Of a stretch of 64,000 nt of DNA, positions 1,941 through 36,608 are shown piece after piece. A program made the translations under genes and the position numbers. Each line of letters begins with the position of its first letter. Position 1 is the stretch's first letter. The notes below the pieces were generated by a model. It did not search any database. It was not told the DNA's origin and saw only the letters and a list, made by a program, of their open reading frames with translations. Source of the stretch: Ditylenchus dipsaci. Taxonomy: Eukaryota > Nematoda > Chromadorea > Rhabditida > Anguinidae. The stretch is from the NCBI GenBank assembly GCA_004194705.1, contig SADC01000070.1:496001-560000 (forward strand), given 5' to 3'.

Positions 1941-2391
1941 GTGGTCAACACTTGTGGAGAAATTCAAGAGCTTCAAGATAGGCAAAAAGTCAGCACAAAA
2001 ATTACGCAAAAGTTTTTCAGAAATTGCAGAAGAAGAGTTAAGACCTTGGAGTTTATTTTATCTATCAGTCATAGTTTCAAAATTTTTGTTCCGCCTCTTC
2101 GCAAGCTTATTACTGAAATATTCAGCACACTCAGCGCTTGCGAACAAGCTATCACTTGCCTAAAAAGCCCAAAAAATCTCGAAATTAGAGGAGATTTTTG
2201 TCGAAATTATTATTCGGAAAAATGCCACTTGTTTGCTTCAAACAGTCTCTAGTTTCGAAAATTCTGACTTTTCTGGTAGCTGAATATACAGGCTACATTT
2301 TGGTATATAAAATGTACTGAAAATTCTGTAGTTTCGCACTTTTTTCTGTGGTGTAATTCACGAAAATTTGTCGTATTTTTAGGCTATCCAA

Positions 2392-3887
2392 ATGATCCAA
2401 ACAAGACGTGCTAATGTAGTACAGAAGGAGCCGGTAACAAAATCAGCGAAAACTGAGAGGAGTTTGAATTCAAGAATCGCTTCAATCGCAGCAAAGAGCG
2501 CAAGGAAAATTGGAAAAGAAGCTGTTGGTGCAAGAACAGGGAGGCAGGAAAAATTCGTCTTTGTAAGTTGACCTGTTGTCCAATTTCTTTTTTGTTTTGA
2601 GAACTTTTTCGTTTTAGCAAAGAAAGGGGATGGAAAATCCAGACAAAATGCGCAATTGGTATTGGCAATGTAGAGCGCGCAAATAGAGCAGACTCACTCC
2701 TTCTAGTGGCATTATATGATGGCGAAGATAGCTACTCAAATCTGTCAAGTCTCTCAGCGGTGTTTCAGCAGCTTGAGTTCAGTAGCATCAAAGTCGGGGT
2801 GGAGCAAAAGGAAGTAGAGTGGTGTGTTTCAACTTAGATTTGCTTTTTCCGTATTGTGCTTTTCAGGTTTTTGACTGGCGATCTATTTATGGAGACAGTC
2901 TGTGGTCATCTTGGTTCAACTGCAACTAATCCGTGTCTAATCTGTGTAGCCCAAAGAAACTTTTCAAAGAAAGCACTATTCACCCAACAAGGACTATTTT
3001 CTCGCTGGAACAAAGTTACTTAAGGTAAATATTAGATACAGCTTTTCGATCGATTTATGCTATTTTTTTCTAGGCATCAATTCTATACCCAGGATAAATC
3101 TGTGCTGATTAGAAAAGAGTTTACCAAGCTTCGAAGTGATTGCTATTCGGTGACAAGAAGGCAGCTTCTGAAAATTCAGCCTTGCAACTTCATTCCTCCT
3201 TCACTTCATCTCATCCAGGGATTGTGCCAGGATATTCTCAAAGCAATGGAGGAATCTGAGCCTATACTGGTTGAAAACTTCGAAGCTGTGTACAAAAGTT
3301 TGAAAGCAGACAAGAAAGCATGGCATCAGCACTTCACAGGTAGCAATTTTTCAATAGATCACTGGTTCCTACCGTCCAAACTCAAGGCAATCGTACTCGT
3401 AACCTTCTGACTGGTGATGGACCGCGAAGAATTTCTGATGTGATGTGTCAAAGCCCCTTGCGTATCGGCTTTCGCACTCTACTTTCGTTACTGGGAAAAA
3501 TGCAAACGCTAGCAAAGGGCTCCTATCTGAAAGATGAAGACATCAAAAGGTTCAAACAGTGGTCCAAAGAGTACTTCAAGACGATGAGGGTAAATCTGTT
3601 TCAGCTATTTAGATAAATTTTCTGATTAGAAGTCTTTAGGATATGTTTCCGCAAATGGCGATAACTCCCAAGTGTTACATACTCTGCTAGCATGTTAGCC
3701 AATTCATGGAAAAACATCGCTTTGGGGTCTCTTGTCCGAGCAATCAATAAAAGCTTTGCATTGTAAGGTAAATGGTGATGAAAGAAGACTTACCTGTTTG
3801 CGTGAAAGAGAGAAGACGCTAAAGAAAATATTAGAAGACTCCTATGTCAGAAACATTTTATTTGATGGAAATTCGTTTGACTTGTAA
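2392..3887 (+). pseudogene. Transposase-like gene of a nematode multicopy family, disrupted (RAG1/CMC-like layout)
   Basis: Likely exons are 2392-2562, 2618-2821, 2867-3024, 3074-3339, 3387-3589 and 3640-3887, with GT..AG borders. Visible blocks in order are: basic first exon MIQTRRANVVQKEP; LLLVALYDGEDSYSNL; WFLTGDLFMETV followed by NPCLICVAQ (a CxxC pair); FIPPSLHLIQGL; FTGNRTRNLLTGDG; and a tail with LLSEQSIKALH. The order acidic D block, GD, CxxC, LHL and SEQ resembles multicopy nematode and cnidarian proteins and, more remotely, the RAG1/Transib/CMC catalytic core; this relation is inference from memory. It is broken: exon 3 ends in an in-frame TAA (3021-3023), the frame shifts near 3684-3710, and the junction of exons 1 and 2 is out of phase. 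An Asp expected before LHL in such cores is Ser here. Confidence 0.6.
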
Positions 3888-4035
3888 TTGTTGATTTGTT
3901 GGTGTTATTGATAAAATTGCTTTCGTTGAATCGAACCCAGCAAAGAATCAGAAAACGTTTGAAAACACACGGAATTTTTTTTCAAATTTTTGGCGTTTTG
4001 TTTATTTTTAATTAAACTAAAGTACAGTTTTTGAG

Positions 4036-4824
4036 GGGTACAGCCTGATTGGTCGCTAAAAAACTGGCCGTTTACAGAACTGGCAGTTTACAGCATTAGT
4101 CGTCAGAAAATTGGTCGTTTACAAAACTGGCCGTTTACAGAATTGGTCGTTTACAGGATTGGAATTTCAAGAAGTAATCAATGATTGAACGAGTGACCTT
4201 AATATCATTGGCAACCAATGCCAGATCAGACATAGTTTAAGTCAAGAATAGAGCAAAGAGAAATTTGCAAACCCTGGATCAACAACAAGACAGAAAAACG
4301 GCCTCTTTTATTCCCCGTCGACAATAATAGCAATAACATAATTTTCAATACTCAAAGTTTCCTCATCGCCTGAACCATGCTATGAGCCCACTCCTCTCGC
4401 TAAAGCATTTCCTGCTCAACGTTGACCCATCGCTAAATTTGACGAAGAATAAGACGATCTTTGGCTGATTGTACTTCTAAATTGTGTGTGTTGGGGATCT
4501 AATGAGATGAGGTGGAAAGACGCTGAACAATGTGATGGCAGAGAGAGAATGACCGACAGAGACGAAACGGTGTTTGGCATGCTATTAACCACAACTAAGT
4601 GTTACCTTAACTTGTAACCCCAATTAAAGAAGTTGCGCTTTTGCAAACGACTAATTCTGTAAACGGCCAGTTTTGTGACGACCAATTCTGTAAACGACCA
4701 ATTCTGTAAAAGACCAATTCTGTAAACGACCAGTGTTGTGACGACCAATTCTGTAAACGACCAATTCAGTGAACGGCCAGTTTTGTAAACGGCCTGTTTT
4801 GTGGCGACCAGTCAGCCTGTACCC
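4036..4824. mobile_element. Merlin-like element with minisatellite ends, 8-bp TSD
   Basis: The ends are GGGTACAGCCTGATTGGTCGC-type inverted repeats that grade into tandem copies of about 16-24 bp built on GGTCGTTTACAGAACT (4040-4165) and its complement (4655-4815). The duplication TTTTTGAG lies at 4028-4035 and 4825-4832. Removing the element and one duplication copy restores the conserved X end CAGTTTTTGAGGGGCCGTG of the host element, which independently supports the boundaries. The interior (4165-4650) shows no gene. Confidence 0.8.
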
Positions 4825-4843
4825 TTTTTGAGGGGCCGTGGAC

Positions 4844-4994
4844 AACGAGAATTTCAAATGTTTGAATTCGCGCGGGACAGTTCTCTTTCGTCTTTCATTG
4901 TACTCTTTTGAGTCATTCGAAGCAAGTCAAAAGAGTACACTGCGAGACGAAAGAGAACTGTCCCGCGCGAATTCAAACATTTGAAATTCTCGTT
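4844..4994. repeat. Near-perfect foldback hairpin
   Basis: Arms of about 65 bp starting AACGAGAATTTCAAATG pair across a short loop near 4917. The inner part (GGGACAGTTCTCTTTCGTC) is shared with hairpins at 55.96-56.09 kb and 58.19-58.31 kb, so this is a repeat family. Confidence 0.7.
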
Positions 4995-5356
4995 ATGGGC
5001 GACGGCTATTCTTTAAGTTGGTTGAAAATAGTTCAGAATAGAATTCTGAGCGATTCAGCCTATCAGACGACAATTCTGATGCGTGCAATCGCATTTTAGT
5101 GAAAAGATCACAGCCCTTTTAGCAACCCCCCCCCCCCCAAAAAGCGTTTTCAATGGCTTTCGACCACTCTAGGGTAGTATTCTGAGCAATCCAAGTAATT
5201 TTCGGACCGTAAAATTTAAAAATAGTTTAAAGACAAAAAAATCTACGGGCGAAAACTAGTAATCTACTAACATTCAAAATCTATGAGCAAAAAGAAATAT
5301 TCTGCGGGCATAAACGAGTATTCTACGGGCAAAAAGAATTACCACCCTTAAATTAA

Positions 5357-6221
5357 ACGATAGAAAAGAATATAATTGTATTTAAAATTAACCAGGAAGT
5401 TCATTAAATAGACAGAAAGCCATAAAAATAAATGCCAAAACAGAAGTGTAAAATTACATTGATCATTCTGCAAGCATTTTGGAACAGGAAGAAAATTGAG
5501 AAAAGCAAAAAAATAACTAGTTACTCCATAAATGATCACAATATAAAATACATTTTATAGGGCCATATATTTTGAAGTGCGCCGGCTCTCTCCGGTCCTC
5601 TCTGAGGAAAAAGAGTTATGTGTAACTGATACCGACGCGGTGTGTTTGAAACCGGGGAGTCAATTGGAGTGTGTGATGAAACATGTAGAGCGTTTGCGTT
5701 TCAAAATGAGGGCCGAGAATCCAGCTCTCTGCGGATGTTATAGTCGAGATGGACTTGCAGCAAGGGGATGATTCCATGGTTTAGCTGAAGCAGGGAGTGT
5801 CAAATTTGAAAAAATCGCGAATATAGGAATTTTCTTTTCAAGACAAATATGAGAATATTTTCTGAGATTTCTTCATTTTGATTGATTGGATGCTTAACTG
5901 TATAACTGGATTTATGCTACATTTTCATCACTCAATTAGCCATGTTTAGACTTAAACGGAAGCTAAGAGTCAGCTCTACACGTTTATTCCAAAAAAAACG
6001 GAAATATGGAGCGATTCATGTAACTATTCAAGCTAAACTTAAATATCTAAATATTCCCAAAATGCACGTTTTAAAAGCCGTTTTCTGTAATTTTGGACCA
6101 CTTGATATGAACTTTTGGGCGCTAGCATAGAATACACGCCCCACACACGCACGGAATACACGCCCTCGGATCTCGAGATATTGCCAATTCAAAGTAACGA
6201 ACCGTGTCGAATATCCGAAAG
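5357..6221. other. Stretch with one unresolved open frame
   Basis: Plus-strand codons 5577-5771 are open and of mixed composition (including KPGSQLECVMKHVERL and NPALCGCYSRDG) and end in TGA. No family was recognised and no splice partners were found, so it is not called as a gene. The remaining sequence is AT-rich. Confidence 0.3.
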
Positions 6222-6267
6222 GGTACTTCTCCGGTTGCCCCTCCCTAAATTTTCGGGTGTGAAAATT

Positions 6268-6432
6268 TATCCTGACACCGGAGCGCATACGCAGACTGTA
6301 GAATCTACATGGCAGAAGTTCAAGCGCCGGCACAAGTGTGGATATGGTATTCACCGATCTGTCTTTTCGTGTGGCGTAGAAACTTCAAAGGAGAAGATAT
6401 TCTGTTTCATTTGTGGTCACAAATTGCTCTGA
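6268..6432 (+). pseudogene. Merlin/ISXO2-like (IS1595 type) transposase, C-terminal fragment
   Basis: The block PDTGAHTQTVESTWQKFKRR followed by GYGIHRS matches the end of the DDE/DDN domain of ISXO2-like transposases. That family has GAHTQ-x-IES-x-W-x-x-x-K, where the Glu of the IES motif is near the catalytic end. Only about 30 residues are clearly conserved (6268-6360); the frame then continues unlike the family to a TGA at 6432. The rest of the transposase is absent, so this is a deletion product and not functional. It supports assigning the GG-ended elements in this window to Merlin. Confidence 0.7.
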
Positions 6433-6522
6433 TTTATGAATGTGAAAAATAAGTTTTGTTGTGTTAATTTTACAAATAAAGTCATAGAAAAATTATTATG
6501 TGTAAAAAATATTAAAATAGGC

Positions 6523-6775
6523 TACCGTAATTCCTCTAATAAGCCGCCCCCCCCCCCTAAATTCAAAAAACGGGTTTCTGGCATTGTGTTTTTGACCTAT
6601 GTTTTGAAAACCACTGTTAGGCAAGTCACCATCTATTTTGTAGCTCATCTCACTGGCTACAAATTGAGGGGTAACTTGCCGAAGAGGAGTCTTCAAAAAA
6701 TGGGTCAAAAACACAATGCCAAGAACACGATTTTGAACCAGAGGGGGGGGGCGGCTTATTAGAGGAATTACGGTA
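6523..6775. mobile_element. TACCGTAA-ended MITE
   Basis: Terminal inverted repeats TACCGTAATTCCTCTAATAA and its complement flank about 250 bp, with a C-rich/G-rich block just inside. The terminal TA is probably the duplicated target, as in Tc1/mariner-type elements. It is nested in the Merlin relic at 6222-6834. Confidence 0.7.
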
Positions 6776-6866
6776 AATTGCTTTATATGGGCAAACCCGA
6801 AAATTTAGAGGGGGGGGGCCAACCGGAGAAGTACATCTGAAAGATGGTTATTTTCTTTCTTCTTTA

Positions 6867-7366
6867 TACCGTATTTCCTCTAATAGGCGCACCGGTGCGC
6901 TTACCGTATTTTTCCTAATTGCCGCACAGTCTCTAATTACCGCACACCCCTAACTTTGAGGACTTATATCTCGAAGCAGAGTAAATATTTCGCTAAGCTG
7001 TTTGATGCGTTCTCTTAACTCCCACGAGCTCTACCGATTGCACTTTTTAGATCTTGGTTGAGCACCCGAAAATCTCGAGATCGAATTCCAAATTTTCCGA
7101 TTTTTGGGGATTGAAAAATAAGCGCACATGTGCGGCAATTAGGAAAAATACGGTATTTTTCAATCTCCCGAAAATCGGAAAATTTGGAATTCGATCTTTT
7201 GGGTAAAAGTGAAAAATCTGAAAAATGAAATCGGTGGAGCTTGTGGGAGTTAAGAAAACGCAATAAAAAGCTTTGCAAAATGTTGACTCTGCACCGAGAT
7301 CCAGACCTTCAAAGTTGAGAGGATGCGCTTGTTAGAGCGGGTGCTCCTATTAGAGGAAATACGGTA
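6867..7366. mobile_element. Two nested TACCGTATTT MITEs
   Basis: The outer pair is TACCGTATTTCCTCTAATAG (6867) and its complement ending at 7366. An inner pair TACCGTATTTTTCCTAATTG (6902) ends at 7155. The interior carries a segment (GGGAGTTAAGAAAACGCAA near 7245) shared with the copy that starts at 18817, so these are members of one family. Confidence 0.7.
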
Positions 7367-7556
7367 CATCTTTTTATATTTATTGCAAGGACCCACACAT
7401 TTTATACCATTCTACGCAGAATTGAGCGGGCTTTCTTATGGCAATAAGTAAGGTTTATTTTAATTCGACGTGCACCGTCCACACAAGCCTTCGCCAGCAA
7501 CAGTTTATAGCCCGAACACACACTACAACAACAACATGACATACAATGAGATTCTA

Positions 7557-8130
7557 CTATAGATTCTTCCTTCTTCTTCTTCTTGTTGCTTCTGCGGAAC
7601 GCCCACCACCCGTCGTGCTGAGCCCAGAGGTCGGATGGTGTACTGCATGAGCTGCGGGGATCCAGTCACCGGAATTGAGGAGCGCTTCAGAACCACGAGC
7701 ATCCAGCTTGACTTCGGCATCCGGAACAGCCATCTTCTTCGGTCCAACTTCTCCGGGTCCAACATCGGTCTTCATGTCTTCCATGAGCTTCACTCTACCT
7801 CGGGTCATATCCCCAGGTCCCATCTCGGTCAGCACCATAACCACTTCGCCTTCGGTCATAACTCTCAATCGCCTGCGGGTATTACCGGGTCCCAAACCCT
7901 CTCACTCTATTTTGCCAACGGTAGGTTCCCCGATCAAAAGACTCAAAAAGCTTACTAACCTGTGCTTCGGTCCCTTCTCCCAGCACTTGACGACAATCGG
8001 CCTCGAGCATAATCAGAGCCTCCAGAGCGCCACCTCCACTGTCGATCAGTCGCTTAAGTTTCGAGTCCACCTTGAACACCAGGCCATTCGCTTCTGTTTC
8101 CAAAATCGCGCAGAGCATTACCTTTGCGAT
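7557..8130 (-). CDS. Unidentified two-exon reading frame
   Basis: Exon 7960-8130 follows an acceptor (AATCTAG) and encodes a run ending ALEALIMLEADCRQVLGEG before the donor GTTAGT. A second exon, 7557-7898, joins in phase if the acceptor GAGAG at 7899 is used and ends in a very basic tail (RRRRRK) before TAG. The first exon looks helical and acidic; the second is Gly/Pro/Met-rich. No family was recognised. The opposite strand is also open for 159 codons (7675-8154), so the coding strand is not certain. Upstream exons, if any, would lie beyond the mobile element that starts at 8274. Confidence 0.35.
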
Positions 8131-8273
8131 CTAGATTTCTTTTTTAGGTTCTAGAGAACGAAGCTAAAATGATTTTTTGCGTCAACGGGTCAAAATCCTT
8201 CGGTGCAAGACCAATCGTCTTTCAAAACGGGTCATTCTCACTCTATTTCTTTTTAAACGGTCTCATGCCAAAA

Positions 8274-9859
8274 CACAGCCCACTGAAATTCAAATCTTAG
8301 TGCAATTAAAATCAACAAAACGCCAAGATTTTCAAAATCGATTTTTGTGTGCACTCGACATCGAATTTTTTCAAGGTCAATATTTTCAACAAATACTAAC
8401 TTTTTTCAACAAAATGCTGATTTCGAACTTACAGTGTATGTGATAATTCACCATGTTTGCTCTAGAATACGTACCCCGACGCTAACTTTATTCAATTGAA
8501 GTCTTTTAACAACATTCCAAGGACACAACAAATAAAACTCTAGTAGAACTAGCTCGGTTTCTTCTGATCAAACAAAATATTCCTCAAATAAGATTCCTCG
8601 AAAATTTTCGTCAAAGTTTTTCTTCTTTCCCGCAAGCAATTTCTTCCAAAGCCTCAAGCATGAAATTGACCACGAAGACGACGAGCCAGCTGAAGGTCCT
8701 TGCACATGACGGTGACCCGCTTGGCATGGACGGAGCACAAATTGCTGTTTTCGAAGAAGCCTGTCAACTACATTTCCACGGCTTCTTGAAGAGCAACAAC
8801 AGCAAACGCCCTAAAAAAAGATAGGTTATAGGAGGACATGTACGATAATCGGAAAAGGAACGCACGATAGCGAAGAACTGTCTTGAACTTTTGCGCAATT
8901 TCACGGACAAGGCGCTGAAACGGAAGCTTACGGAGCAGCAAATCAGTCGACTACTGATAGCGGAGCATCTCACGAAGAGCAACAGTGCCAGGACAATAGC
9001 GACGCGCCTTCTTGATTCCACCATCAACTCCGGCACGAGCATGTCTTGACACCTACAGACTTTTTCGGAGCTTTTCCGGCCAGTCTTTTGCGCAGTTTGC
9101 TAAAGTAAAAAATAAGTGTGATCACTGAAGAGGTACCAAACGCAAACCTGTTACACCTGCTGAAACCTGCTCCTCATTGATTCTTGATTTCTGTCCTGCT
9201 CTCTGCTTCTTTGATAGCTTGGATTGCGAGTCCTCATCATACCTGAAAATTACACAAAATTTCAATCCGTCAAAAATCTAAAAAAGTCGTCGTTTTTAGG
9301 ACGTCTTATATACCAAAAGATAGCTCAGACGTTCGGCTACAAGAATAATCAGACCGATTTTTTTTAATTCAGAATTAAGAAAACTAGAGGCCGTTTAAAG
9401 CAAACAAGTGGCATTTTTCCGAATAAAAATAGGGTGTTTCGAGTTTTCTATCTAACTTTTGTATAAAACGCCAAAATTTGTATTTTTTGTATACTTCCTT
9501 GGTACCAAAATGTAGCAAATCTACTTCTTTATCGAGTCTCCGGTTTTGTTTTAGATCAACTTGACGAAAAAAGTTCCTATGATCTCGAATAAGTAGACTA
9601 GATAAAGAAAAAAATAATAATTTTTTCACGGAAATCAATTGTAATTCTCAAATTTTGATTGTTTCACGGGCAAGTGATGGCTTATTCGAAAGCCCTATAA
9701 GTTGGGAGTTTTTTAGAAACAAGCCCTGCATAGGCAGTAGATAAACATCTATATAAAAAGCAATACATGGAGGTACTTCAAAAGTGTCTAGTTTCAAAAA
9801 ATTTGAATTTCGCGCAATTTTTCGCTATTGCACTAAAATTCGAATTTCAGTGGGCTGTG
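8274..9859 (-). mobile_element. CAC-end element carrying a histone H3 copy
   Basis: The left end CACAGCCCACTGAAATTC is an X end (followed by CAAAACGCCAAG). The right end is the matching Y end (GAATTTCAGTGGGCTGTG, ending 9859). Flanks are AAAA on both sides (8270-8273 and 9860-9863), compatible with a 4-bp duplication but low in information. The Y arm (9290-9859) aligns with those at 2.0-2.3, 33.0-33.7 and 36.1-36.6 kb. The gene runs from Y to X on the minus strand. Confidence 0.7.
8654..9240 (-). pseudogene. Histone H3-like pseudogene captured in a transposon
   Basis: Likely exons are 9157-9240 (MMRTRNPSYQ, the element's own first exon), 8844-9099 and 8654-8810. The second starts QTAQKTG, which corresponds to H3 residues Q5 onward, and shifts frame twice. 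It then reads GGIKKARRYCPGTVALREM, a stop at the position of the Lys in RYQKST, then [17 protein letters not shown]. The third reads [10 protein letters not shown], a TAG at the Tyr of EAYL, then [18 protein letters not shown] and LARRLRG, ending near the usual H3 C terminus. The stops are one step from AAG and TAC. Two stops, frame shifts and a replaced N-tail rule out a working histone. Spliced structure argues against a simple retrocopy. Confidence 0.8.
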
Positions 9860-9863
9860 AAAA

Positions 9864-10296
9864 ACCCACCTCCATACAAATAATAATTTTTGCATATTGA
9901 CACGTTTTTCATGAAAAATTCGACAATTTACATTAAAGTCCTATTTTCCAAAACAACGTCCAAAACGGAGTTCTGTTTGTTTCCTAAGAATTGTTTCCTC
10001 TTTCGAATGAGACCTAAACTAAAAATTTCATAATATTGAGGTAACAAAAGTTGACGCTACTGTCATACAAAACCCCTTCCCCAAAGCTACTGTAATATTC
10101 AACCCAACCCACCTAAAAAAAGCTACTGTCATATAGCCCCCCCCCTCAAAATCGACTTTTTGGGAGTGTCTAAAAACGGTTTTTATACAATAATTTTGCC
10201 ATAAAAGGACCAAAAAAGCAATTTAAAGGGGATTATGGGCTGTATGGGGATGGGAAGGGAATAATACAGGGGCCACTTTTATTTGGCTCGGGCCGT
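9864..10296. other. Non-coding stretch with C-run foldback pieces
   Basis: AT-rich, with a run of C (10137-10145) followed by CTCAAAATCGACTTTTTGG, a motif also seen beside C-runs at 37.72 kb and 38.33 kb. No gene was seen. Confidence 0.4.
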
Positions 10297-10546
10297 GACT
10301 CTATATGCATTTCATGATCAAGTGTACTTTTCGAAATCATGTCTAAGGTAAGTGCTTGCGCGCATCTCTAACTCTCAAGCCCCTTGCGCCCCGAAGGGGG
10401 CTTGGGGCGTGGAGTTGAGATGCGCACACCCACATACCTTAGACACAAATCACTCAGAAGCGACTCTGGATGCACGAAAAAACATGCATACCAGAGTTAT
10501 TTATACGGTAGGCCTAGTATTCGAAACTATGTTCAACATCTTTGCT
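10297..10546 (+). repeat. Splice-donor hairpin repeat, copy 1
   Basis: The unit starts GACTCTATATGCATTT and has ATGTCTAAGGTAAGTG (10338-10353), a perfect 5' splice-site consensus. A long hairpin follows: GTCTAAGGTA pairs with TACCTTAGAC at 10434-10443, and GCGCATCTC with GAGATGCGC. A second hairpin (CTCTGGATGCA / TGCATACCAGAG) and a U-rich TTATTTATACGG box come next, and then GGTAGGCC. Five other copies lie in this window. Confidence 0.7.
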
Positions 10547-10920
10547 TTTTCACCGAAGAGCATTTCCCCTCGTTCTAGAAGGCCGGGCCAGAGACCCAGC
10601 ATCCAAAAATTTAGCCTAGCACTCGAAAAGCGCTAAGCTTAGGCGAAAACCCGCAGGATGCACCCCGCATATTACACAACCCGTATATTACAGTAGCGCC
10701 CAAAAAATGGTCCAAAATTACAGAAAATGACTTTTAAATTTTAATGATTTTATTTGAAAATGTTCGAATTTTGAAGTCTTTGAATTCTGAAGGTTTAGAT
10801 TCTGGGCTTCGAGCTCCGCGAAGAATTTTGTCAGAATTTTACATTTTTCACGTTCCAAAACCTGTTTTTTTGGACTAATTCGGACCAGGGTTTGCAAAAA
10901 AGGCCTGTTTTTGAGAATGC

Positions 10921-11410
10921 TAGTAGAAGGCGAATCGCCAACACTAGCATATTTAAAGTCTAGCTAAGCATATTGATTTTACTAGCATTTGTGAAGTCTA
11001 GTAAAAACAAAACGCCAAGCTAGCATTCACAAAAGTTCAATTTCGCGAGAAATGTTTACTAGCATTTGCAAAGTCTAGTTAAAACAAAATGCCACACTAG
11101 CATTTGCAAAAGTTTGTTTTTGTCGTCAATTTTCCACTAGCATTTCTAAAGTCTAGTTAGAGCAAAATGCCACACTAGCATTTGCAAAATTTTGATTTTG
11201 CGGGAGATCTCTACTAGCATTTGCAAAGTCTAGTTCGAAAAAAATGCCGCACTAGCATTTTTAAAAAGTTTATTTTTGCCGTCAATTTCTACTAGCATTT
11301 CTAAATTCTACCATAATGAAAATTTCGAGTAAGCATTTTTAAAACTCTGTTTTCGTGGGTTGAGTTGTACTAGCATTACCTAAACTCTACTAACATTAAA
11401 CTGTCGAACT
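10921..11410. repeat. Left subterminal tandem arm of the hAT element
   Basis: About six units of roughly 75 bp are built on ACTAGCATTTGCAAAGTCTA and AAAATGCCACACTAGCATT. The same units occur inverted at 13790-14190. Unit ends vary while the TAGCATT core is kept. Confidence 0.8.
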
Positions 11411-11749: not shown

Positions 11750-11920
11750 CAGTCAACCCTCGATTCAACGACTCCCCGATTTAACGACACTCCCGATTTA
11801 GCGACACCCGAAAATGAGCCCATTTTGTTGGCTTTGACTAAAATTTAGTCAAAGTAAATCCTTGATTTAACGACACCTTAAGTCGGTCCCCAGGGGTGTC
11901 GTTAAATCGAGGGTTGACTG
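11750..11920. mobile_element. Pogo/Tigger-like MITE, TA target
   Basis: Inverted ends CAGTCAACCCTCGATT and AATCGAGGGTTGACTG are flanked by TA on both sides. The interior repeats a CGATTTAACGACAC-type unit. It is nested in the 3' part of the hAT element. Confidence 0.8.
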
Positions 11921-11998
11921 TATATGAATTCATAACACTTTATTTAATTAACCATAAACAAAGGCCTGGATAACAACAAAACGAGCAAATTAGACCAA

Positions 11999-26890: not shown

Positions 26891-27129
26891 ATTTTCCGGC
26901 CGAAACGGGTGTCCCCCTCTTCGGCCCGGACACGGACAAAATCTTCTCGCGCCAAAATCTTCTCGGGGACAAAATCTTCTCGGCCGAAATCTTCTCGGCC
27001 GAAATCCTCTCGGACAAAATCCTCTCGGCCAAAATCTTCTCAGGACAAAATCCACCACCCAAAATTCACCTCCCAAAACCTCAGAAATTTGAATTTTCAG
27101 TCTGAACAAACAAACCAAGTGGTCGTCCA

Positions 27130-27440: not shown

Positions 27441-27892
27441 TTGTATCATAGAAAAAATTAAAATGATTCGACCTACAGGAACCCCAGTTCTCGAGTAGTT
27501 TCGTATCCCTTAGGGTATCCAGGTGTATGGAGATGGTAGTACTAAGATAGTGTCACTAAGGTGTTAGTACCAAGAGAGTGACGAGGTATCGGTACTCAGG
27601 TGGAATTTAAATGCACGCAAAAAAATTTCAAAATTTGAATTCAGCGAATTCAGTTCAAGTCCACCTTTTTGTCAAGTACCGTGCTATAGGCCAGCAAGGA
27701 GTACCATTATATTAGGACTCCACCACAATACTCACCACAATACTCTCAAATATTAGCAATTCAAATTCTTGCGAAAATTTTTCATTGAATTGCTAGCTTA
27801 CTAAAATGCCTAGCCATGAAAACTAGTCGGAATTTATATAAATTACGTAAACTGAACAAAGTGAATATTTATTGAACACCACAAAAACAAAA
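27441..27892. other. Non-coding 3' part of the MULE element
   Basis: No gene was seen. Short GTACTAAGATAGTG-type direct repeats occur at 27537-27600, and the sequence becomes AT-rich towards the end of the transposase gene. Confidence 0.4.
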
Positions 27893-30800
27893 CTATTGAT
27901 CCATGACAAAGTTATGAGCTAATCCCCGTAGATATTCGATTAAATTTTTTTCCAAACAATTGCACCAGAGCGAGAATTCTTTTGTCCGCTTCCAAGTAGA
28001 CTTTCCTTTTTTCGGAGCTGGCTGACCCATAATGCACTGTTCAAAGGAGTGATCACTGAGCTTTTGATCTTTTTTCATCTCGCCCAAGAAATGACCATGG
28101 TCGGATGATCAATGCCCAAAATAGTATGCAATCGACGATGAGCTGCTTCAGCGAAGTTGTTGGTTCTGTCTTGACCGGCGAGAGTTCTGTTATAGCACGA
28201 CCAAAGATGTACCGGAAATGGAGGCGGACGCATAAGTGTGCCTATAAGCATAAGCTCACACGTTAATATTGCAAAAAGAATGAGTGATAGACTTACCAAC
28301 ATAGTAGGACGAAAACCACATGATCACGGGCTCTAGACTTGGTTCTTCACGCAACAGATAGCTTTTAAGTTCTCGAAAGCACTCATAGATATTGATAAGA
28401 GGAACAAATGCGAGCGACATCAGCATTCTTGAAGTGAGTGCAAAATCAGTCGTCGGATCCCTGTACTTTTGCATCAATCCAGCGTTACCGAATTGCTTCT
28501 TGAAGTTTTTCAAGAGGTGGAAAGAGCAGCCAGCAATTTTGGAGTCTTCAGAGTTTGGAGCATCTAAACTGTTTACTGAGAAGTGAGAAGTTAACGAGTG
28601 GAATGTGTACCTGGATAAGCGTCTCTAAGGGCTCTAATTGCAGACTGTTCAAAGTCCACGTTGATCGAAGTTGGATTGAACCCTGGCATCAAAGCTTTAA
28701 CCATGCCAAATAACTTTTCGTAAGTAGCATTGTTCTTGTTTTCGATAAGAGCATAGAGTATTGGAAACACATACTTGCCACCTGCTGGATTGACGGCATT
28801 CTTCTCAGCCAAAATAGCATATACCTGTAAAAATTATTTCAAAGAGATAGAAGAACGAAAATCTTAGGAAGGTTCACTTGATTGAAAGGTGCTGGAGTAA
28901 TACTGAAGGTACCGTCAAGAAAAACGTTCGTAACTTGGTTACACCAGATTACTTTCACGGCCGAAAATTATCACCCTGCAAGCAGTAAGACACATTAACA
29001 AGAGACATCAAAATCCAAGTAAACAAGTTACCTGTCTGAGTCAACCATATGCTCACCTGAATCTGCCAAGAGGAACAACTCACGCTGACCGTCACCGTGA
29101 TACTTAAATTCTTCTGGAATGTGAACATCTTCGACAAGATTTGCTTGAAGTATTGGCAGCTGTTCTTTGACTCTTTCTCTCCGGATCTGTTTTCTTGCTG
29201 CGCTCTTGCTTAGATTTGCTGCCAACATCACTGAAGCACTCTGGAGCTCCTGTGTAAATATCTGAATCGGCATCTAAAGATAATTAGCTGAGTCGACTTC
29301 AAAGATTCACTTGGAGAAATAAAACAAACGTCTTGCGTGTCCTTGGCCCTTCTTTTCATATTTGACTTGATTTGCGCCACGGCCACTGCTGCTGGATTGA
29401 CTTCATGATTGTGTCCCGTAGGTTCCTTTAGATGACCCAATAGCTGAATAAACCGATTTGCGCCGACAAATGTATGAAGACGTGCTTTGCAACCACCATC
29501 CTTCATCTTGTTCTAGTCACAAATACAATACTGAACAGCGCCGTCTGGTTTGCTTAGGCAGTGCTAAGTAAAGAGAAACCCTTTGTGCTCAGCTTTGTCA
29601 TTCCTTTCTGTGATTTGACAAATGTGACCGGATTCTTTTTTGAAAATTCAGAAATCAAACTAATAGGAAACGTACAAAAAACAAAACTACCTGTAAAAGA
29701 AACACTGTGTATGTCACTGGCCTGATGAAATCGAAATGACCACTAACTTCATATTCTTCTTGCAACACATCTTCTTCGGAACTGCTATAGCCGCCCACGC
29801 CAGTGTTTTCATAACTAACACTGACGCCTAACACTAACCTAACGTTAGGCTAACGCTTAACCTTACACTAACACTAACATGTTAGTGTTAGTGTAAGGTT
29901 AGTTTAAAATGGCGGGTTAGTGTTAGTGTTAGGTTAGTTTCAAGTGTTAGTGTTAGGTCAGTGTTAGCCTAACACTAACATAGTTAGTCTCAAAACTAAC
30001 TGTTAGTTTAAAATCAAACTGTTAGTTTAATTCTAGTATTGATTGTGACATACTGCTTTACTAACATAAGGTTTCAGTTTATGGTTAGCTACTGTTTATC
30101 CACTGTTTCTTAAAAATGATTCGTATTTTGATTTAAGTTATAAAAATTGCCAGCTATGTTGTATTTTGACTTCTTACTGGTATTTTCTTGTTTGCTTGCA
30201 GAAATGTCTATCGAAGTGAGTCAGCTGTCTGTTCAAGAAACCCAAGAAGGCCTCAAAAAAGCGATTGCGAAAATCATATGGATAACTGATTTTGGTAAAA
30301 TCAATTATTAGCTAAAACTCGAAAAATACCCGAGAAAATGTTATTTTGCTACTGTCAAACCATCATCAGCATACCCGAATTAGTCCAGAAAATAGGTTTT
30401 GTAACCCGAACAACGTGAAAAATTTTTTTTGTTGTGCGCAATGTGAAGTGATCGCTTGACCAAAGTGCTGGTCATAGACGATTTTGAATTGGGAGCCTTC
30501 TGGAAAATAATTACGTTATTTTGATAGCTAAAATTAGTCAAAATCGTGACACAAAATACATAGGCACAATTTGAAATTGGCACAAACAGAAGAGGCACAA
30601 ATTGAAAAGGGCACAAACTGCAGGGGCACAAACCAAAAAGGCACAATTTGATTCGACACAATCTAAAATGGCATATCTCTCTCCTTCCCGAAAATTTGTG
30701 AGTGAGACTGAAAAAAGTCTTTGGATACACTGAAAGTGAGAGTGAGAGTCAAAAAAAACTCATTGGGTACACTGAAAGTCAGAGTGAGAGTGCAAGTGAG

Positions 30801-31063
30801 AGTGAAAGTAAGACTGAAAGGCAATTTTTCCTGTTGGGTACACACTGAGAGTGAGAGTGAAAGTGCGAGGCAGACTGAGAGTGAGAGTGAAAGGAAAATC
30901 CGCTCATTGGAAACAGGGCTTTAGTGTTAGTGTAGAGTTAGTTTAAAGTGTTAGTGTTAGAGTTAGGTTAGTGTTAGCCTAACACTAACATAGTTAGTGT
31001 TGGTTATGAAACACTGCCCACGCCTGCCAAAGTTCTTCGCATATCTTCTTCAGCTTCTATCAT
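27893..31063 (-). pseudogene. MULE-type transposase gene, first exon split by an insertion
   Basis: The first exon starts at 31063 (MIEAEEDMRRTLAG) and continues at 29800-29691 (YSSSEEDVLQEEYEV) once the 29801-31016 element and one copy of its target duplication are removed, keeping the frame. A FLYWCH-like zinc-finger region follows (about 29330-29640, with GGCKARLHTF and HNHEV) but has two in-frame TAG codons. Then come FLDGTFSITPAPFNQV and VYAILAEKNAVNP (MULE DDE start, 28600-28960), GFNPTSINVDFEQSAIRAL, GCSFHLLKNFKKQFG (28310-28575), AGQDRTNNFAEAAHRRLH (28075-28245) and a basic tail ending TAG at 27893. The domain order is that of MULE transposases. The split first exon and two stops make it inactive. 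Confidence 0.8.
29801..31016. mobile_element. hAT-like non-autonomous element inside the MULE gene
   Basis: Ends CAGTGTTTTCATAACTAACA and, reverse complemented, CAGTGTTTCATAACCAACAC. CCCACGC is duplicated on both sides (29794-29800 and 31017-31023). Arms consist of TAACACTAAC arrays. The interior has GAGTGAGAGTGAAAG short tandem repeats (30640-30900) and a piece of the hairpin repeat family (30300-30420). Confidence 0.7.
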
Positions 31064-31349
31064 TTTACTTCTGAAATAAGATAGTATATGCGCATGTGAA
31101 CAGTAAAACTAATACACTTAAAGAGAAAAACCTCTCTTTATTCAACAAAAAACCAAATGGATTAGCCACACCATAAGGAGAGACTATGATATCTTTAAAT
31201 TATGAATTCCTTTATCAATAAAATTTTTTACTGCAAGAGGATTGTGCCTGAGAAGGTTTTGGCCGAGAGGATTTTGGTCCGAGAGGATTATGGCCGAGAA
31301 GATTTTGTCCCGAGAAGATTTCGGTCCGAGAAGATTTTGTCACGTACCG

Positions 31350-31740
31350 CTTCGGGCCTGTGGCTACGAGCCACAGGCTCAGCCATCCAAAAATAAAACG
31401 ACAACCCTCGGGATCCACTCGGCTGACCGGCCTGATTCTGTTGTCAAAGAATACTGTTTTCTGTTCTGTTTCCGTGATCAAATAGTCAAGCAGTTTATGT
31501 TAATATTTAATTGATTGCTACATACAGCAGAAAGATTTTTACTCTGCTCTCTTAAACGCTTCAATCAACAGATACTCCCACTGACCGACCTCCCACAATC
31601 ACACAGTTGATACCTCGCCTACCACATACACTCTTTATTGAAACAAAAGCAGACAAAGCAATGACAACTTTACGCACTCTTCTCGAACAACAAGTTGCAA
31701 TAAACGATAAGTTGCGAATTCAACAGGCCCAGTTCAGTCC
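31350..31740. other. Non-coding stretch
   Basis: Contains a fragment (TGTTTTCTGTTCTGTTTCCG at 31459-31480) inverted relative to 26.45-26.53 kb, which flanks the other side of the MULE element, and a short frame from 31660 that is probably 3' non-coding sequence of the adjacent hAT fragment. Confidence 0.35.
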
Positions 31741-31751
31741 GATTTTTTCAA

Positions 31752-31850
31752 TTTCGTGTCGCCAAGCCGGCCAATGAGAAAACGCGTTCGATTGGTGCGC
31801 TCGTCGCAGGGACAGACAAAACCTCCAAGGCGAGTGTAGCGATTGATTAG
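31752..31850 (-). pseudogene. hAT transposase C-terminal fragment
   Basis: The frame reads LALEVLSVPATSAPIERVFS then LAGLATRN and a stop. This is the hATC dimerisation motif (PAT-S-x-P-x-ERVFS-x-AG). No upstream transposase exons were found next to it, so it is an isolated relic, different in sequence from the other three hAT copies in the window. Confidence 0.75.
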
Positions 31851-31859
31851 TATTCCTTG

Positions 31860-32172
31860 AAGCAAAAACAGTATCATTTAATAATTTTGCACTGCCAAAT
31901 CAAAGCTTACAGCATCTAGCAAGGCAGATCGATACTTGAGAACGACAGGAGTACACTTTATGGGGTTGTCCAAAAGTGGTTTTTTTAAGGGAAAGTATTT
32001 CATAAGCCCTGAGAACGATAGAAACGGCAAAAAAGAGTGTGGGAAGGCCATTTTTCGAAAAAAAAAATTTTTTCGAACCACAGGGGGGTATCATGGTTTT
32101 TTAGTCAAAATTTCAAAAATTTAAATTGGCGCCTTTTGAATTTAAAAGGGAATAAAGGCTGTATAGGGTAGG
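31860..32172. other. Non-coding stretch
   Basis: AT-rich with A and T runs (TTTTTTCGAAAAAAAAAA around 32050). No gene was recognised. Confidence 0.35.
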
Positions 32173-33291
32173 CACGGCCCTCAAAAACTGCATTCTAGTG
32201 CATTTAAAAATAAACAAAACGCCAAGATTTTTGAAAGTCTTTTTCAAAATTTATTGGTTTCTTTCTTTTTTTGCTTTTGCCGTGTAATTTTTTTTAGCAA
32301 AATATGAATTTTTCGAAACATAATTACACCATTTCAACCTTCTATGACACATAGCACACCATACACGAAGATGGTAAAGCGTCAAATTTCGCTATAAAAT
32401 AACTAAAGTGCAAAAAATATCAAAAAAGCGAGACTTCAAAACAAAAGCAAAAATTATCACCAATTCAAGCCAATAACAAATTCACATCAAAACATTTTAC
32501 TTCACATCATACACCGATTCCACAAATTATAGTTTTTCGTGTGAGCCTGCAGACCCACACAATTGGGAAATTGTGTAACGTACAGCGCTGGCACCACATA
32601 ATTAAAACAATCAGAAGACTTTATTCTCAAATCGTTAATACGAATCTAAAACTCAAATAGACCAAAGTTTTCTTTATTATAGATCTCTGCAACAAAACAA
32701 TGACAACAACCCATAGGCACATAATTAGAACTTGATGTCATCCAAATGGCGGGCTCCATCTTTGTCAATAATGATCACGCTGCAGTTATTCTGGCTGACC
32801 ATAGGGCGCTTCTTAATTTCCATTAAGTACTTGTTCAAAGCATTTAGTCCTTCGGACATATCTAGGACAGTGCAAATGTGAAAACAGTCTACAAAATTGT
32901 AAAATTACCATTTTTGTACAAGCTGTCCAAGATCACATAGCGGTAACTCACGGCCCTCAAAAACTGCATTCTAGTGCATTAGCGAAATTTGGCGCCAAAT
33001 CAAAATTTTGAAAAACCGCTGTTTTTTAGTTTATTTTATCCAGCACTTCTGGTTTTACTTTTTTCGCTGTACCTCATGTAAGTTTATTGTCAAAAAACTC
33101 ACCACATTCAGCGCTTTCGAACAAGCCATCACTTGCCCATAAAACATGCAAAATTTCGAAGCTATAATTGATTTCTGTGAAAATTTCAAAGAAATTTTTT
33201 TCATCTAGTTGACTCGATTGAGATTCTAGCACTATTTTATGTCGAGTTTTCCTGAAACGCAACTGGAGGCTCGATAGAGGAGTAAATTTGC

Positions 33292-33544
33292 GGAACTGCT
33301 TCACAATATGGTACCCCAATTTGCCTTGGTCCCCCCTGTTGTTTTTTGTTGAAAACTACCTTGGTCCCCCCTGTTGTTTTGAAGGTGATCATGGTCAAGG
33401 TGATCATGTTAACCGTAATCACCATGATCACCATAATCACAGTATCAATATAACTATAATGGACAGGGGAGACCAAGGTATTTTTCGAGAAAAAACAACA
33501 GGGGGACCAAGGCAATTTGGGGTACCATATTGTGAAGCAGCACC
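33292..33544. mobile_element. Merlin-like foldback element with 8-bp TSD and an empty-site copy
   Basis: Ends GGAACTGCTTCACAATATGG and GGTGCTGCTTCACAATATGG (reverse complement of the right side) are flanked by AAATTTGC at 33284-33291 and 33545-33552. The homologous Y arm of the outer element, near 36260, has the uninterrupted site with a single copy. TGCCTTGGTCCCCC blocks are shared with repeats at 21.78, 23.66 and 55.79 kb. Confidence 0.85.
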
Positions 33545-33829
33545 AAATTTGCTGCATTTTGGTACCAAAGACGTATACAAAAAATGCAAATTTTAGGTGT
33601 TTTATGCAAAAGTTAAATGGAAAACGCGAAACCCCTATTTTTACTCGGAAAAATGCCAGTTGTTTCACTCTTTTGGTCTGAGATTTCTGAAAAATGGCCT
33701 TTAAGGATTTTTTATAGTTTGTCGTGGGACTTTTTTTGTTGCGCTATCTTTTAATGCATGAAGCGCTAGAAAAAATGCGAATTTTTGAGTTTTTTATGCG
33801 AGACAAAGATTTATGTTTCAGGTCTAGCA

Positions 33830-34145
33830 ATGGTCAATACCCGAAAAATGCAAAAAGATGCTGAAGAGCAGCCGATATTCGGGAAATTTCAAGCTCTGGC
33901 ATGCAAGCGATGGTCTAAAAAGTCAAACATGAAGCAAATTGAAGTACAGAAGAGAAAAGCAGCAAGTGCAAAAGCAAGAGAAGTGTGGGAACTTCGTCAT
34001 CGTAAGCTGTTTCATATGGCTGTACCTGATATTTTGAAAGAGCTTTCGTTTTAGTGAAGCAAGCTGATAAGCAACAGCTGGAGGCTAAATTAAGAGAAGA
34101 ACTTTCAGCCAAGAGGCGGAATGCAGTCGCAGTAAGATGGAACAG
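33830..34145 (+). CDS. Element-specific first and second exons of the inner copy
   Basis: After an acceptor (TTATGTTTCAG) the first exon 33830-34001 (172 nt, phase 1) starts MVNTRKMQKDAEEQPIFG and is Lys/Ala/Arg-rich. Exon 34055-34145 joins in frame (LKQADKQQLEAKLREELSAK) and looks like a charged coiled coil. Using donor 34146 the frame continues into the RNA polymerase-like exon at 34264. No known function; possibly a nuclear, basic leader supplied by the element. Confidence 0.5.
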
Positions 34146-34263
34146 GTTAAGATCCAGAAAAGAAGAAAGCAGCCGATATTCGGGTAGTCTCATTTACTGA
34201 TCAATTAAGGCTGATTTTATTTCTACCGAAGAGAAGGAACAGCAGTTTACCCTCTCAGTTTAG

Positions 34264-34432
34264 ATGCATCGAAGAAGACCGTGACTGGCTCAGCATTTAC
34301 CACGAAATGCCCTACTTCAATCCTACGAATGCTAGTCCTTGGCTGCTGAGACTTGAGTTGGATCGCAAGCGAATGACGGACAAGAAGTTGAGCATGCAAT
34401 CACTCGACAAGGGATCAACAGGCAAGAAGTAG
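34264..34432 (+). pseudogene. RNA polymerase II largest-subunit exon fragment
   Basis: Reads [15 protein letters not shown] then [20 protein letters not shown], matching the RPB1 segment that follows the trigger-loop half (YYEMPD...ISPWLLRIELDRK-x-MTD-x-KL). Only about 45 residues are present, ending in TAG. It joins in phase to the element's own exons, so the captured piece may have been spliced into a chimeric transcript. It cannot act as a polymerase. Confidence 0.8.
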
Positions 34433-34524
34433 GCGCTTGGTCAATTAACTAAAGTCGGAACCGACTGCTTAGATCTGGTGGGTATTTTTGCAAGTGTAGT
34501 GTAGTAGCTTAATCTCTTTCTCAG

Positions 34525-34710
34525 GTTAACGATCTGTTCGACCGCTTGCTGGATGAATCCGCCCACCTGGTCAAGTATGGCGAGACTCGTACGCTTTCTT
34601 CTCGCGAAATCCAGACCTCCGTTCATCTCGTCATGCCTGGAGAGCTGGCCAAGCACGCTATCCTGGATGGAACCAAAACTATGTCCAAGTATAGTGATTC
34701 GTTAACTTGA
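34525..34710 (+). pseudogene. Histone H2B C-terminal half, captured
   Basis: After acceptor TTTCTCAG the frame reads VNDLFDRLLDESAHLVKYGE, SSREIQTSVHLVMPGELAK and HAILDGTKTMSKYSD to TGA. This is the H2B alpha-2, alpha-3 and alpha-C region (FVND-x-F-x-RI ... [21 protein letters not shown]). The N-terminal half is absent. The sequence is diverged but keeps the frame, suggesting capture as genomic exon sequence. The splice connection to the RPB1 piece upstream is not resolved. Confidence 0.85.
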
Positions 34711-35800
34711 GCCGGAAATTGCTGACCAGCCATCGTCTCCTATTAAAAATCGTCCGTTACCGTCTTATGTTGTTCCCACATTTGTTTTTTTTCTGACATA
34801 AAAATCTCTGCTTGAACTTTCTTTTTCGAATAGAGCGGTGTTGATATAGGGTGTGTGATGAATTGGCTTAAAAAATTTGGTCTATTTGAGTTTTAGATTC
34901 GTATTAACGATTTGAGAATAAAGTCTTCTGATTGTTTTAATTATGTGGTGCCAGCGCTGTACGTTAAACAATTTCCCAATTGTGTGGGTCTGCAGGCTCA
35001 CACGAAAAACTATAATTTGTGGAATCGGTGTATGATGCTGAAGTAAAATGTTTTGATGTGAATTTGTTATTGGCTTGAATTGGTGATAAATTTTTGCTTT
35101 TGTTTTGAAGTCTCGCTTTTTTGATATTTTTTGCACTTTAGTTATTTTATAGCGAAATTTGACGCTTTACCATCTTCGTGTATGGTGTGCTATGTGTCAT
35201 AGAAGGTTGAAATGGTGTAATTATGTTTCGAAAAATTCATATTTTGCTAAAAAAAATTACACGGCAAAAGCAAAAAAAAGAAAGAAACCAATAAATTTTG
35301 AAAAAGACTTTCAAAAATCTTGGCGTTTTGTTTATTTTTAAATGCACTAGAATGCAGTTTTTGAGGGGCCGTGAACTACCAGCCATACCCGAGAAGAGAT
35401 AATTCTAAGACAGGTATGCATACAAAACAAAATCATGTAACAATTTACCTGGTCTGGAATTCCATTGCCTGAGTAGCCAATTGAACTGAGGACTGCTTCG
35501 TTCTTCAACTTATCGCATGCACCAAATAGCAAAGACCAAGAGGGAGGCATTTCAGCAGACTGCAGACTGAGTGCATACCTGAAAGACGAACAGGTTAAAT
35601 AGTGCACTGGTAGAGTGGAGACACTGGAAGCAGTTGAGGCGCTTTCTATCACACAAAAATCTGATCTGTTTGAGTCTTTCATTTCAGGTACTCGAGAGTA
35701 TTGTCGCAATTGCACTTGCACCGTCACACGTTCTTCGTATGGGCTGTTAATTTCCTAAACGCAAACATTGGAAAATACAACCACTGAGAAATTTACTTAC

Positions 35801-35972
35801 ATAGACGAGTTTTTCCTGCCTTCTTTGCACTCGCGATGGCATTTTCTTTGGCGCTCATCCTGGCACTTCTTGCTTCCATCAGAGCCTTTATTGCTTCAGA
35901 AGTCCTTAGAATGCTAGCTTGCTTTGTTTCCGGCTCTTTCTGCACTGCAGTAGCGTGTCTTGTTCGGAGCAT
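35801..35972 (-). CDS. Element-specific first exon of the outer copy
   Basis: After acceptor GCATTTTCAG and nine bases, the exon starts MLRTRHATAVQKEPETKQ and is Ala/Lys/Arg-rich to the donor GTAAGT; 172 nt, the same length and phase as the inner copy's first exon. It resembles the 171-nt exon at 2392 (MIQTRRANVVQKEPVTKS). The join to the next plausible exon (35754 downwards) is out of phase, so this copy is probably decayed. Confidence 0.5.
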
Positions 35973-36608
35973 TAGGCTTGCCTGAAAATGCAAAAAAATA
36001 TACTGTAATAAACGACAGACAAAAAGTGCAAAACCACAGAGTTTTTCACACGATCTTTATAGCAAAATGTAGCCTGTGTATTCAGGCACCAGAAAGGTCA
36101 GAACGATTTTCGTAAAATCAGAATTTGTAAAACTAGAGATCGTTTGAAGCAAACAACTGGCATTTTCACGAGTAAAAATAGGGGTTTTCGCGTTTTCCAT
36201 TTAACTTTTGCATAAAACACCTAAAATTTGCATTTTTTGTATACGTCTTTGGTACCAAAATGCAGCAAATTTACTCCTCTATCGAGCCTCCAGTTGCGTT
36301 TCAGGAAAACTCGACATAAAATAGTGCTAGAATCTCAATTGAGTCAACTAGATGAAAAAATTTCTTTGAAATTTTCACAGAAATCAATTATAGCTTCGAA
36401 ATTTTGCATGTTTTATAGGCAAGTGATGGCTTGTTCGAAAGCGCTGAATGTGGTGAGTTTTTTGACAATAAACTTACATGAGGTACAGCGAAAAAAGTAA
36501 AATCAGAAGTGCTGGATAAAATAAACTAAAAAACAGCGGTTTTTCAAAATTTTTGATTTTGCGCCAAATTTCGCTAATGCACTAGAATGCAGTTTTTGAG
36601 GGGCCGTG

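Follow-up and report, generated by a model that had tools for sequence, protein, structure and literature searches.

Probable Pack-type Chapaev DNA transposons carrying pieces of host genes in the nematode Ditylenchus dipsaci

The 64,000-nucleotide stretch of the Ditylenchus dipsaci genome analyzed here (the window; C70:496001-560000, contig SADC01000070.1) contains DNA transposons in which pieces of host genes are enclosed by terminal repeats and by two subterminal arms, X and Y. The gene-carrying elements are very probably Pack-type, non-autonomous transposons of the Chapaev (CMC) superfamily bearing host exon pieces. In these elements, one or more first exons of a transposase gene (the leader) precede the captured piece (the cargo). 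The genome, which was partly read, comprises 227 Mb in 1,359 contigs; contigs are given below as C followed by their number, and fetched loci of the same genome as L followed by a number.

Chapaev elements have 4-bp target-site duplications, a transposase with an RNase H-like DDE catalytic core, and terminal repeats that start with CAC, the described members having a fuller shared start. The ends of the elements studied here are CACGGCCC or CACAGCCC. A perfect 4-bp target duplication was found in 17 of the 19 elements whose two termini and two flanks were all available, a sample that includes L086 and L087/L107 and leaves out segments with a single recognized end. The exact terminal-repeat pattern occurs 199 times, compared to 0 occurrences of a reversed control. 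The same termini delimit a transposase-bearing element of 3,228 bp that is flanked by ACAG (C836:48975-52202, L086). The frame at L086:1672-2028 matches PF06918/DUF1280 (E=5.6e-22), a family with 96 matches in the genome, and the motifs GDKGG, GDLKF...CPIC and SEQSIEALH were read by eye in this transposase. A transposase frame from this genome matches a UniRef protein of Ditylenchus dipsaci with 97% identity over 39% of the query. Mutator elements, including Pack-MULEs, have a Mutator transposase and target duplications of 9-11 bp, CACTA elements have CACTA ends and 3-bp duplications, and Helitrons have neither terminal inverted repeats nor target duplications. The 4-bp duplication and the DUF1280 transposase thus rule out membership in the Pack-MULEs, the CACRGCCC ends and the 4-bp duplication rule out CACTA or Pack-CACTA elements, and the presence of both terminal inverted repeats and target duplications rules out gene capture by Helitrons. 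Proteins with the DUF1280 domain are described as putative Chapaev transposases in the available text of PMC3985635.

The initial annotation placed four elements with common ends and arms in the window. Termini with the sequence CACRGCCC are paired at 8274/9859, 32173/36608 and 32949/35373, the X arms at 32173-32671 and 34871-35373 are inverted copies that are 98.8% identical, and the Y-arm parts at 32949-33291 and 36265-36608 are 98.0% identical, which confirms three of the four. The first element, said to begin at 1950, has no terminal repeat near that position and its alignment to the Y arm begins at about 2050; it is therefore truncated. The features are as follows, in positions of the window.

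2050..4840, plus strand: element 1, a truncated and decayed Chapaev element without a Y terminus and with the X terminus GGGCCGTG at 4833-4840
2392..2562, plus strand: first exon of element 1, 171 nt, MIQTRR...; 93% to the first exon of the L003 transposase element
2601..3884, plus strand: DUF1280 (Chapaev) transposase remnants of element 1; PF06918 at 1e-7 on joined frames
4036..4824, no strand assigned: nested repeat of another kind, 789 bp, which interrupts the X arm of element 1 and is flanked by the target duplication TTTTTGAG at 4028-4035 and 4825-4832
8274..9859, minus strand: element 2, carrying H3, complete at both ends and flanked by the target duplication AAAA
9157..9240, minus strand: shortened first exon of element 2, MMRTRNPSYQ...; its end placed by reading at the donor CAG/GTGTAA
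8654..9099, minus strand: captured 3' part of histone H3, starting at residue Q5, which retains its intron and acceptor and has a shifted frame; H3 in PDB at 7e-30 on joined pieces
32173..36608, minus strand: outer element, about 2.0 kb when the nested element is subtracted, with its X arm at 32173-32671 and its Y arm at 35973-36608
35801..35972, minus strand: first exon of the outer element, 172 nt, MLRTRHATAVQ...; 86% to the first exon of the L002 transposase element
35378..35764, minus strand: captured first part of proteasome beta-2 (yeast beta-4), with introns; proteasome beta type-4 in PDB at 1.8e-8
32728..32948, minus strand: captured last exon of proteasome beta-2 with its stop, from the PDB match and frame reading
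32949..35373, plus strand: inner element, inserted in the outer element; target duplication AACT
33830..34001, plus strand: first exon of the inner element, 172 nt, MVNTRKMQKDAEE...; 85% to exon 1 of the transposase locus L071
34055..34145, plus strand: second exon of the inner element, transposase-derived; 75% to exon 2 of L070
34246..34399, plus strand: captured RPB1 exon (from 34264) with the acceptor of the host intron; 92% over 154 nt to C118:122400-123300
34525..34707, plus strand: captured last exon of H2B with acceptor, followed by a stop; H2B in PDB at 4.5e-36
34871..35373, plus strand: X arm of the inner element; present at 40 of 40 scored places in the genome, with 422 first-look candidates

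Two of the four elements are thus complete transposition units, one has both ends and no target duplication (the outer element, with flanks GGTAGG and TCACAC), and one is a relic. The transposase remnants of the relic, element 1, are 92% identical to C1256:1224603-1226002, and their PF06918 match lies at C70:498640-498777. Its X terminus is separated from the rest of the X arm by the nested repeat, which has inverted ends, tandem-like units and an 8-bp duplication, and many matches in the genome (query part 2087-2875). A group of 2268-bp copies was considered as a cargo class distinct from the inner element and rejected; both are of the RPB1/H2B class, and it is the inner element that, relative to these copies, lacks a stretch between the RPB1 and H2B pieces and carries an insertion in its Y side.

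The cargo was identified with Pfam and PDB searches, in which several of the queries were frame pieces joined by hand. Histone H3, RPB1, H2B and a proteasome beta subunit had been named as cargo in the initial annotation, and all four were recovered: in addition to the PDB matches listed above, H3 matches Pfam at 5e-11 (joined frame pieces) and RPB1 at 5.1e-13, and the match of the proteasome piece starts at the FRYALS... exon. The transposase gene named for element 1 is present as short frames separated by stops. Cargo of other elements in the genome matches PBDC1 (1.3e-8), prohibitin-2 (5.5e-6), ANP32 (3.7e-22) and an MSP domain (1.3e-8). A further piece is tentatively assigned to eIF3K by reading, as its Pfam match (E=0.21) falls below the cut-off and a PDB search gave no match. 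Another cargo, U1, is coding-like, serine-rich and 99.7% alike in three elements (C98, C116 and C465; L092, L093 and L098), and Pfam scans gave no host-gene name for it. Introns and acceptors have been retained in the cargo, for example in the RPB1 and H3 pieces, and it was therefore DNA rather than cDNA that was captured. The H2B, H3 and proteasome pieces finish at the stop of the host frame and are for this reason 3' parts of genes, while the RPB1 piece is internal.

The exons in front of the cargo were proposed to be one shared first exon. The proposed exons at 2392 (171 nt), 33830 (172 nt) and 35972 (172 nt) are supported, each being preceded by AG, and what they share is the same place in the element and a start of the form x-x-T-R. 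The sequences themselves have different best partners among transposase first exons: L002 for the outer element, L071 for the inner element (L070 for its second exon), L003 for element 1 and L086 for element 2 (82% over 77 nt). All five of these best alignments scored several-fold higher than every one of 50 shuffles. Eight of the 30 other comparisons also exceeded the best shuffle, clearly so only for the outer leader with L003 (71% over 183) and the element 1 leader with L002 (82% over 50), and by a margin of a few points for the remaining six. The leaders of the outer element and element 1 are thus related, while those of the inner element and element 2 represent two further groups, and the groups have the position and the x-x-T-R start in common. 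The first exons of L002 and L086 run on into DUF1280 transposase exons. Judged from these alignments, the leaders are several transposase first exons, which form at least three groups that cannot be aligned with each other. Together with the identities of the cargo, the leader alignments bear out the proposal that the arms and the 5' exon or exons of the transposase gene were kept and that host exons have replaced the greater part of this gene.

Opposite termini less than 6 kb apart were paired, counting the nested outer pair, among the 100 positions listed out of the 199 at which the exact terminal-repeat pattern occurs. This pattern represents one terminal-repeat sequence, and element 2 has a different one. 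Among the positions listed, 33 pairs were obtained, of which 21 contain a host piece, five are of the prohibitin class, three carry cargo U1, three carry transposase sequence (one long and two shortened) and one was unsampled; 17 of the 33 were judged from a middle stretch of 700-900 bp only. Twenty of the 21 host-piece pairs were assigned by sequence (one of them, in C206, rests on the tentative eIF3K piece) and one, in C353, by coordinates, while the five prohibitin-class pairs were assigned by common non-coding sequence only. The possibility that the arms occur mostly without genes between them, named in the initial annotation as a finding that would speak against gene capture, is thereby rejected for the pairs sampled.

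Several cargo pieces are present in many copies. For each query the best 40 matches were scored and further places were kept as first-look candidates. The H3 cargo has a match at all 40 scored places (108 candidates), and so does the H2B cargo (112 candidates), accompanied by the RPB1 piece in 38 of the 40. Of the 63 genome matches to PF04990, 47 stop at profile position 69, which is approximately where the piece in the element ends. PBDC1 has 48 matches, and at least eight of these places coincide with places of the Y or X arm.

If the host pieces had instead been multiplied by segmental duplication together with their surroundings, and the terminal repeats were coincidental, the similarity would extend beyond the element ends. 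Sixty flanks of 800 bp (30 from Y and 30 from X loci), taken from 80 scored arm matches, were compared. Three pairs were identical loci (C1346/C7, two places in C1348 and two in C1282), which is what such duplications would give, and one further pair shares a 73% repeat. With three same-locus pairs among the 60 flanks, duplicated contigs inflate the counts only slightly. The cargo stops within the ends of elements that have 4-bp target duplications, and the flanks differ; the copies are therefore the products of transposition. Segmental duplication is rejected for the elements examined and is extremely improbable.

Parent-like genes outside the elements were located for two of the pieces, RPB1 and PBDC1. 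The match of the RPB1 piece in C118:122400-123300 (L076) includes the end of the upstream intron, while no DNA alignment was obtained to the other RPB1-like gene, in C1247:217900-218800 (L075). The PBDC1 cargo corresponds to three exons in C353:37150-38350, at 86-90% identity. This gene has further sequence upstream of the captured exons, including a possible start codon, and covers positions 1-124 of PF04669 in three stretches; neither CACRGCCC nor its complement was found in the 1.2 kb fetched. A second PBDC1 candidate, in C580:117450-118250, was read by eye as an element-like copy with transposase-like leader exons. Of the donor genes that the initial annotation proposed to look for elsewhere in the genome, parent-like genes of RPB1 and PBDC1 were thus located, and no others. 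Likewise, it is only for these two that a parent outside the element, as in the definition of Pack-TIRs (gene-carrying elements with terminal inverted repeats, TIRs), was found.

The combinations of leaders and cargo indicate that the elements have also exchanged parts. Read by eye, ANP32 is found behind two leaders (L106 and L091) and the proteasome cargo behind several (C1250, C53 and C1001). A PBDC1 element retains a stretch of 53 bp resembling the proteasome class ahead of the PBDC1 junction, and is 81% identical to the proteasome-class element in the Y part and 95% in the X part. The same cargo behind different leaders and the proteasome remnant in the PBDC1 element point to serial cargo replacement or recombination. 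The 40 best matches to the X arm come from several cargo classes and show 95-100% similarity. Both the shuffled leaders and the similar X arms would also be obtained if the elements were deletion derivatives of transposase elements, with a single ancient capture of host-like pieces that was later shuffled by recombination between elements only. However, the at least eight different host genes require several captures, and the two parent-like genes are located on different contigs, which makes a single capture very improbable.

Some observations weigh against the interpretation of these sequences as Chapaev transposons with captured host exons. Two of the 19 copies with complete ends lack a perfect target duplication: one, in C160, matches in three of four bases, and the other, the outer element of the window, has none. 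The ends start with CAC, and the consensus of described Chapaev elements is fuller than that. No parent was located for the H3, H2B, proteasome, prohibitin, ANP32 or MSP pieces; for H3, the 40 scored matches to the copy with an open frame are positions, four of which were fetched. Most of the H3 and H2B places are assigned to elements by extrapolation from the copies read with their flanks. Finally, the capture event itself was deduced from its products.

The initial annotation suggested that the captured exons may be expressed as fusions with a basic leader, joined in phase to the RPB1 piece in the inner element. The in-phase join holds with the donor CAG/GTTAAG at 34146, whereas the donor at 34184 is out of phase. 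In the outer element, joining of the leader to the next acceptor gives a stop at the first joined codon. The H3 copy in the window is frame-shifted, with a net length five bases shorter than the copy in C1207 (L087), a complete element with the duplication AGTG. In L087 the joined leader-H3 frame, spliced at the GT of position 582, is open for 189 residues to the first stop, which lies beyond the H3 end. The structure of some copies would allow fusions to be made, and in others stops or frameshifts prevent them.

Proteins composed of leader and captured exons, such as histone or polymerase fragments with a basic leader, might have been domesticated, that is, selected for a use to the host or to the transposon. 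The open leader-H3 frame, the in-phase RPB1 join at a good donor and the sense orientation of all named cargo pieces (see below) would agree with this, as would the leader frame, which among 45 copies is open without an indel in 24, open with an indel in seven and stopped in 14. Low ratios of nonsynonymous to synonymous substitution (dN/dS) between cargo and parent also point in this direction, the ratio being 0.38 over 45 codons of RPB1, and 0.06 and 0.54 in two exons of PBDC1, but constraint on the parents alone can give such values. On the other hand, stops or length changes were found in nine of the ten H3 copies of one set, the exception (L085) being the same place as L087, and all four fetched siblings of L087 contain a stop or frameshift. 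The in-phase donor of L087 is poor (CCG/GTCCTA), and one of the two PBDC1 exons compared has an internal stop in the element copy. The leaders (56-57 codons) give no clear sign of constraint: dN/dS was 0.85-0.90 in three comparisons of the outer class with the PBDC1 class, a pair of inner-type copies gave 0.60, and three further comparisons that rest on few substitutions gave 0.59, 1.04 and 2.44. Domestication is thus distinctly unlikely, and we conclude that the cargo probably consists of passengers with an exon-trap structure rather than of conserved genes.

All nine named cargo pieces, including the tentative eIF3K, have the same orientation as the leader. For independent captures without an orientation bias, the chance of eight out of eight or nine out of nine would be about 1/256 or 1/512. 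Both strands of 26 cargo stretches were also scanned for frames of at least 51 amino acids. Of 80 antisense frames, 43 had this length and were scanned, and of 60 sense frames 33 were scanned, with the leader and several alternative frames excluded. No antisense frame had a Pfam match below E=0.04, whereas the sense frames matched histone (two frames), RPB1, MSP and PBDC1. Pfam is blind to the proteasome and prohibitin pieces, which makes this a coarse control.

Capture is best explained by synthesis that switched to a host gene during repair of the element or stalled replication, so that a stretch of exons and introns would have been copied into the gap. The new element would then have been mobilized in trans by the DUF1280 Chapaev transposase and multiplied. 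The cargo was probably also replaced or recombined serially, and its coding capacity mostly decays. Template switching in gap repair or stalled replication has been proposed for Pack-TIRs, as described in the main text of PMC8277862. The elements examined here can be viewed as natural exon traps, since the upstream donors and downstream host acceptors have been kept. Antisense pieces of essential genes could silence their parents. The sense bias and the preserved donor-acceptor order, which are new clues to the mechanism, fit either a transcript filter that tolerates spliceable, host-like transcripts or selection against antisense pieces of essential genes.

A related idea is that the capture of germline genes shelters the elements from small-RNA silencing, so that cargo-bearing copies outcompete empty ones. 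The named cargo genes are expected to be expressed in the germline, and cargo-bearing pairs outnumber transposase-bearing pairs in the census, with the cargo in sense. However, the bias is also explicable by highly expressed, open donor genes or by the loss of harmful antisense captures, and the census is restricted to one terminal-repeat sequence. We consider such sheltering unlikely. A broader proposal, which we offer tentatively and regard as unlikely, is that Chapaev elements have become a standing exon-shuffling system in this nematode lineage. Several transposase lineages would keep the promoter, first exon and donor as a fixed 5' cassette and take in exons of essential germline genes in sense. 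They would spread because the captured host sequence, or its splicing, gives transcripts that resemble germline mRNA of the host to the small-RNA machinery, and would occasionally yield an intact chimeric gene, such as the leader-H3 frame in C1207.

Plant Pack-MULEs and gene-carrying CACTA elements contain many intron-containing gene fragments and can give rise to chimeric transcripts. The elements in D. dipsaci resemble them in carrying gene fragments with introns in quantity, and differ in superfamily, in the length of the target duplication and in host. Harbinger elements usually have 3-bp duplications. One of these, Turmoil-1 in C. elegans, contains coding pieces of rsp-2 and cpg-3 inside its inverted repeats (Sela et al. 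2008; PMC2572040). It is present as a single complete copy together with eight fragments. Turmoil-1 is thus also a nematode DNA transposon with captured coding pieces, but it belongs to another superfamily, and no transposase leader exon is described ahead of these pieces in the available text. Among 100 animal genomes, 370 Pack-TIRs were reported, corresponding to about two per 10,000 TIR elements (Tan et al. 2021; PMC8277862). Of these, 323 belong to hAT or TcMariner and four cases are multicopy, including a frog Pack-TIR that was amplified into three chromosomes, while 481 of 1337 rice Pack-MULEs, as quoted in the same article, are multicopy. Its main text mentions neither Chapaev, CMC nor nematodes.

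The closest known kind is the Pack-TIR/Pack-MULE elements. As in the Pack-TIRs of the main text of PMC8277862, sequence that is not of transposon origin lies between the ends of a TIR transposon, a parent is found elsewhere, and some copies have been multiplied by transposition. They differ in that the elements here belong to Chapaev, that at least eight host genes are represented in one genome, that the H3 and H2B cargo were each found at 40 of 40 scored places, and that a transposase 5' exon has been kept. Described Chapaev elements share the DUF1280 transposase and the 4-bp duplication length, and host gene cargo is not mentioned for them in the available text of PMC3985635. The initial annotation knew of no such family in an animal, but gene-carrying TIR elements of animals were already published (PMC8277862 and PMC2572040). 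Compared with these cases, the elements described here are new in belonging to the Chapaev superfamily, in keeping a 5' exon, in how many host genes they have captured and in their copy numbers.

In the main text of the large survey (PMC8277862), animal TIR transposons seldom capture genes and the captures mostly remain single-copy, whereas several leader lineages, at least eight genes and some cargo at tens of places were found here. A single genome offers parent-like genes and a variety of leaders, copies of different ages, and frames that are broken as well as open. An animal system is thus available for testing how captures start, whether selection acts on the sense orientation and the kept splice sites, whether captured exons of essential genes cause or escape silencing of their parents, and at what rate chimeric genes survive. 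These cut-and-paste transposons have repeatedly exchanged most of their enzyme gene for pieces of host genes, histones and RNA polymerase among them, and copies of the pieces are now present at many places. Natural exon shuffling of such productivity is unusual for an animal.

Additional repeats were observed in the window. At 58093-58167 there is another Chapaev-like X terminus (GGGCTGTG), which is 79% identical to the X arm of element 2 and was not included in the initial annotation; its partner end was not found. A palindromic repeat is located directly beyond this X terminus (58183-58326) and directly beyond that of element 1 (4844-5000), with 76% similarity between the two, which suggests a common target or nested repeats. 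Copies of a repeat that is also present within the prohibitin-class cargo elements are located at 55300-55448 and 11860-11922.

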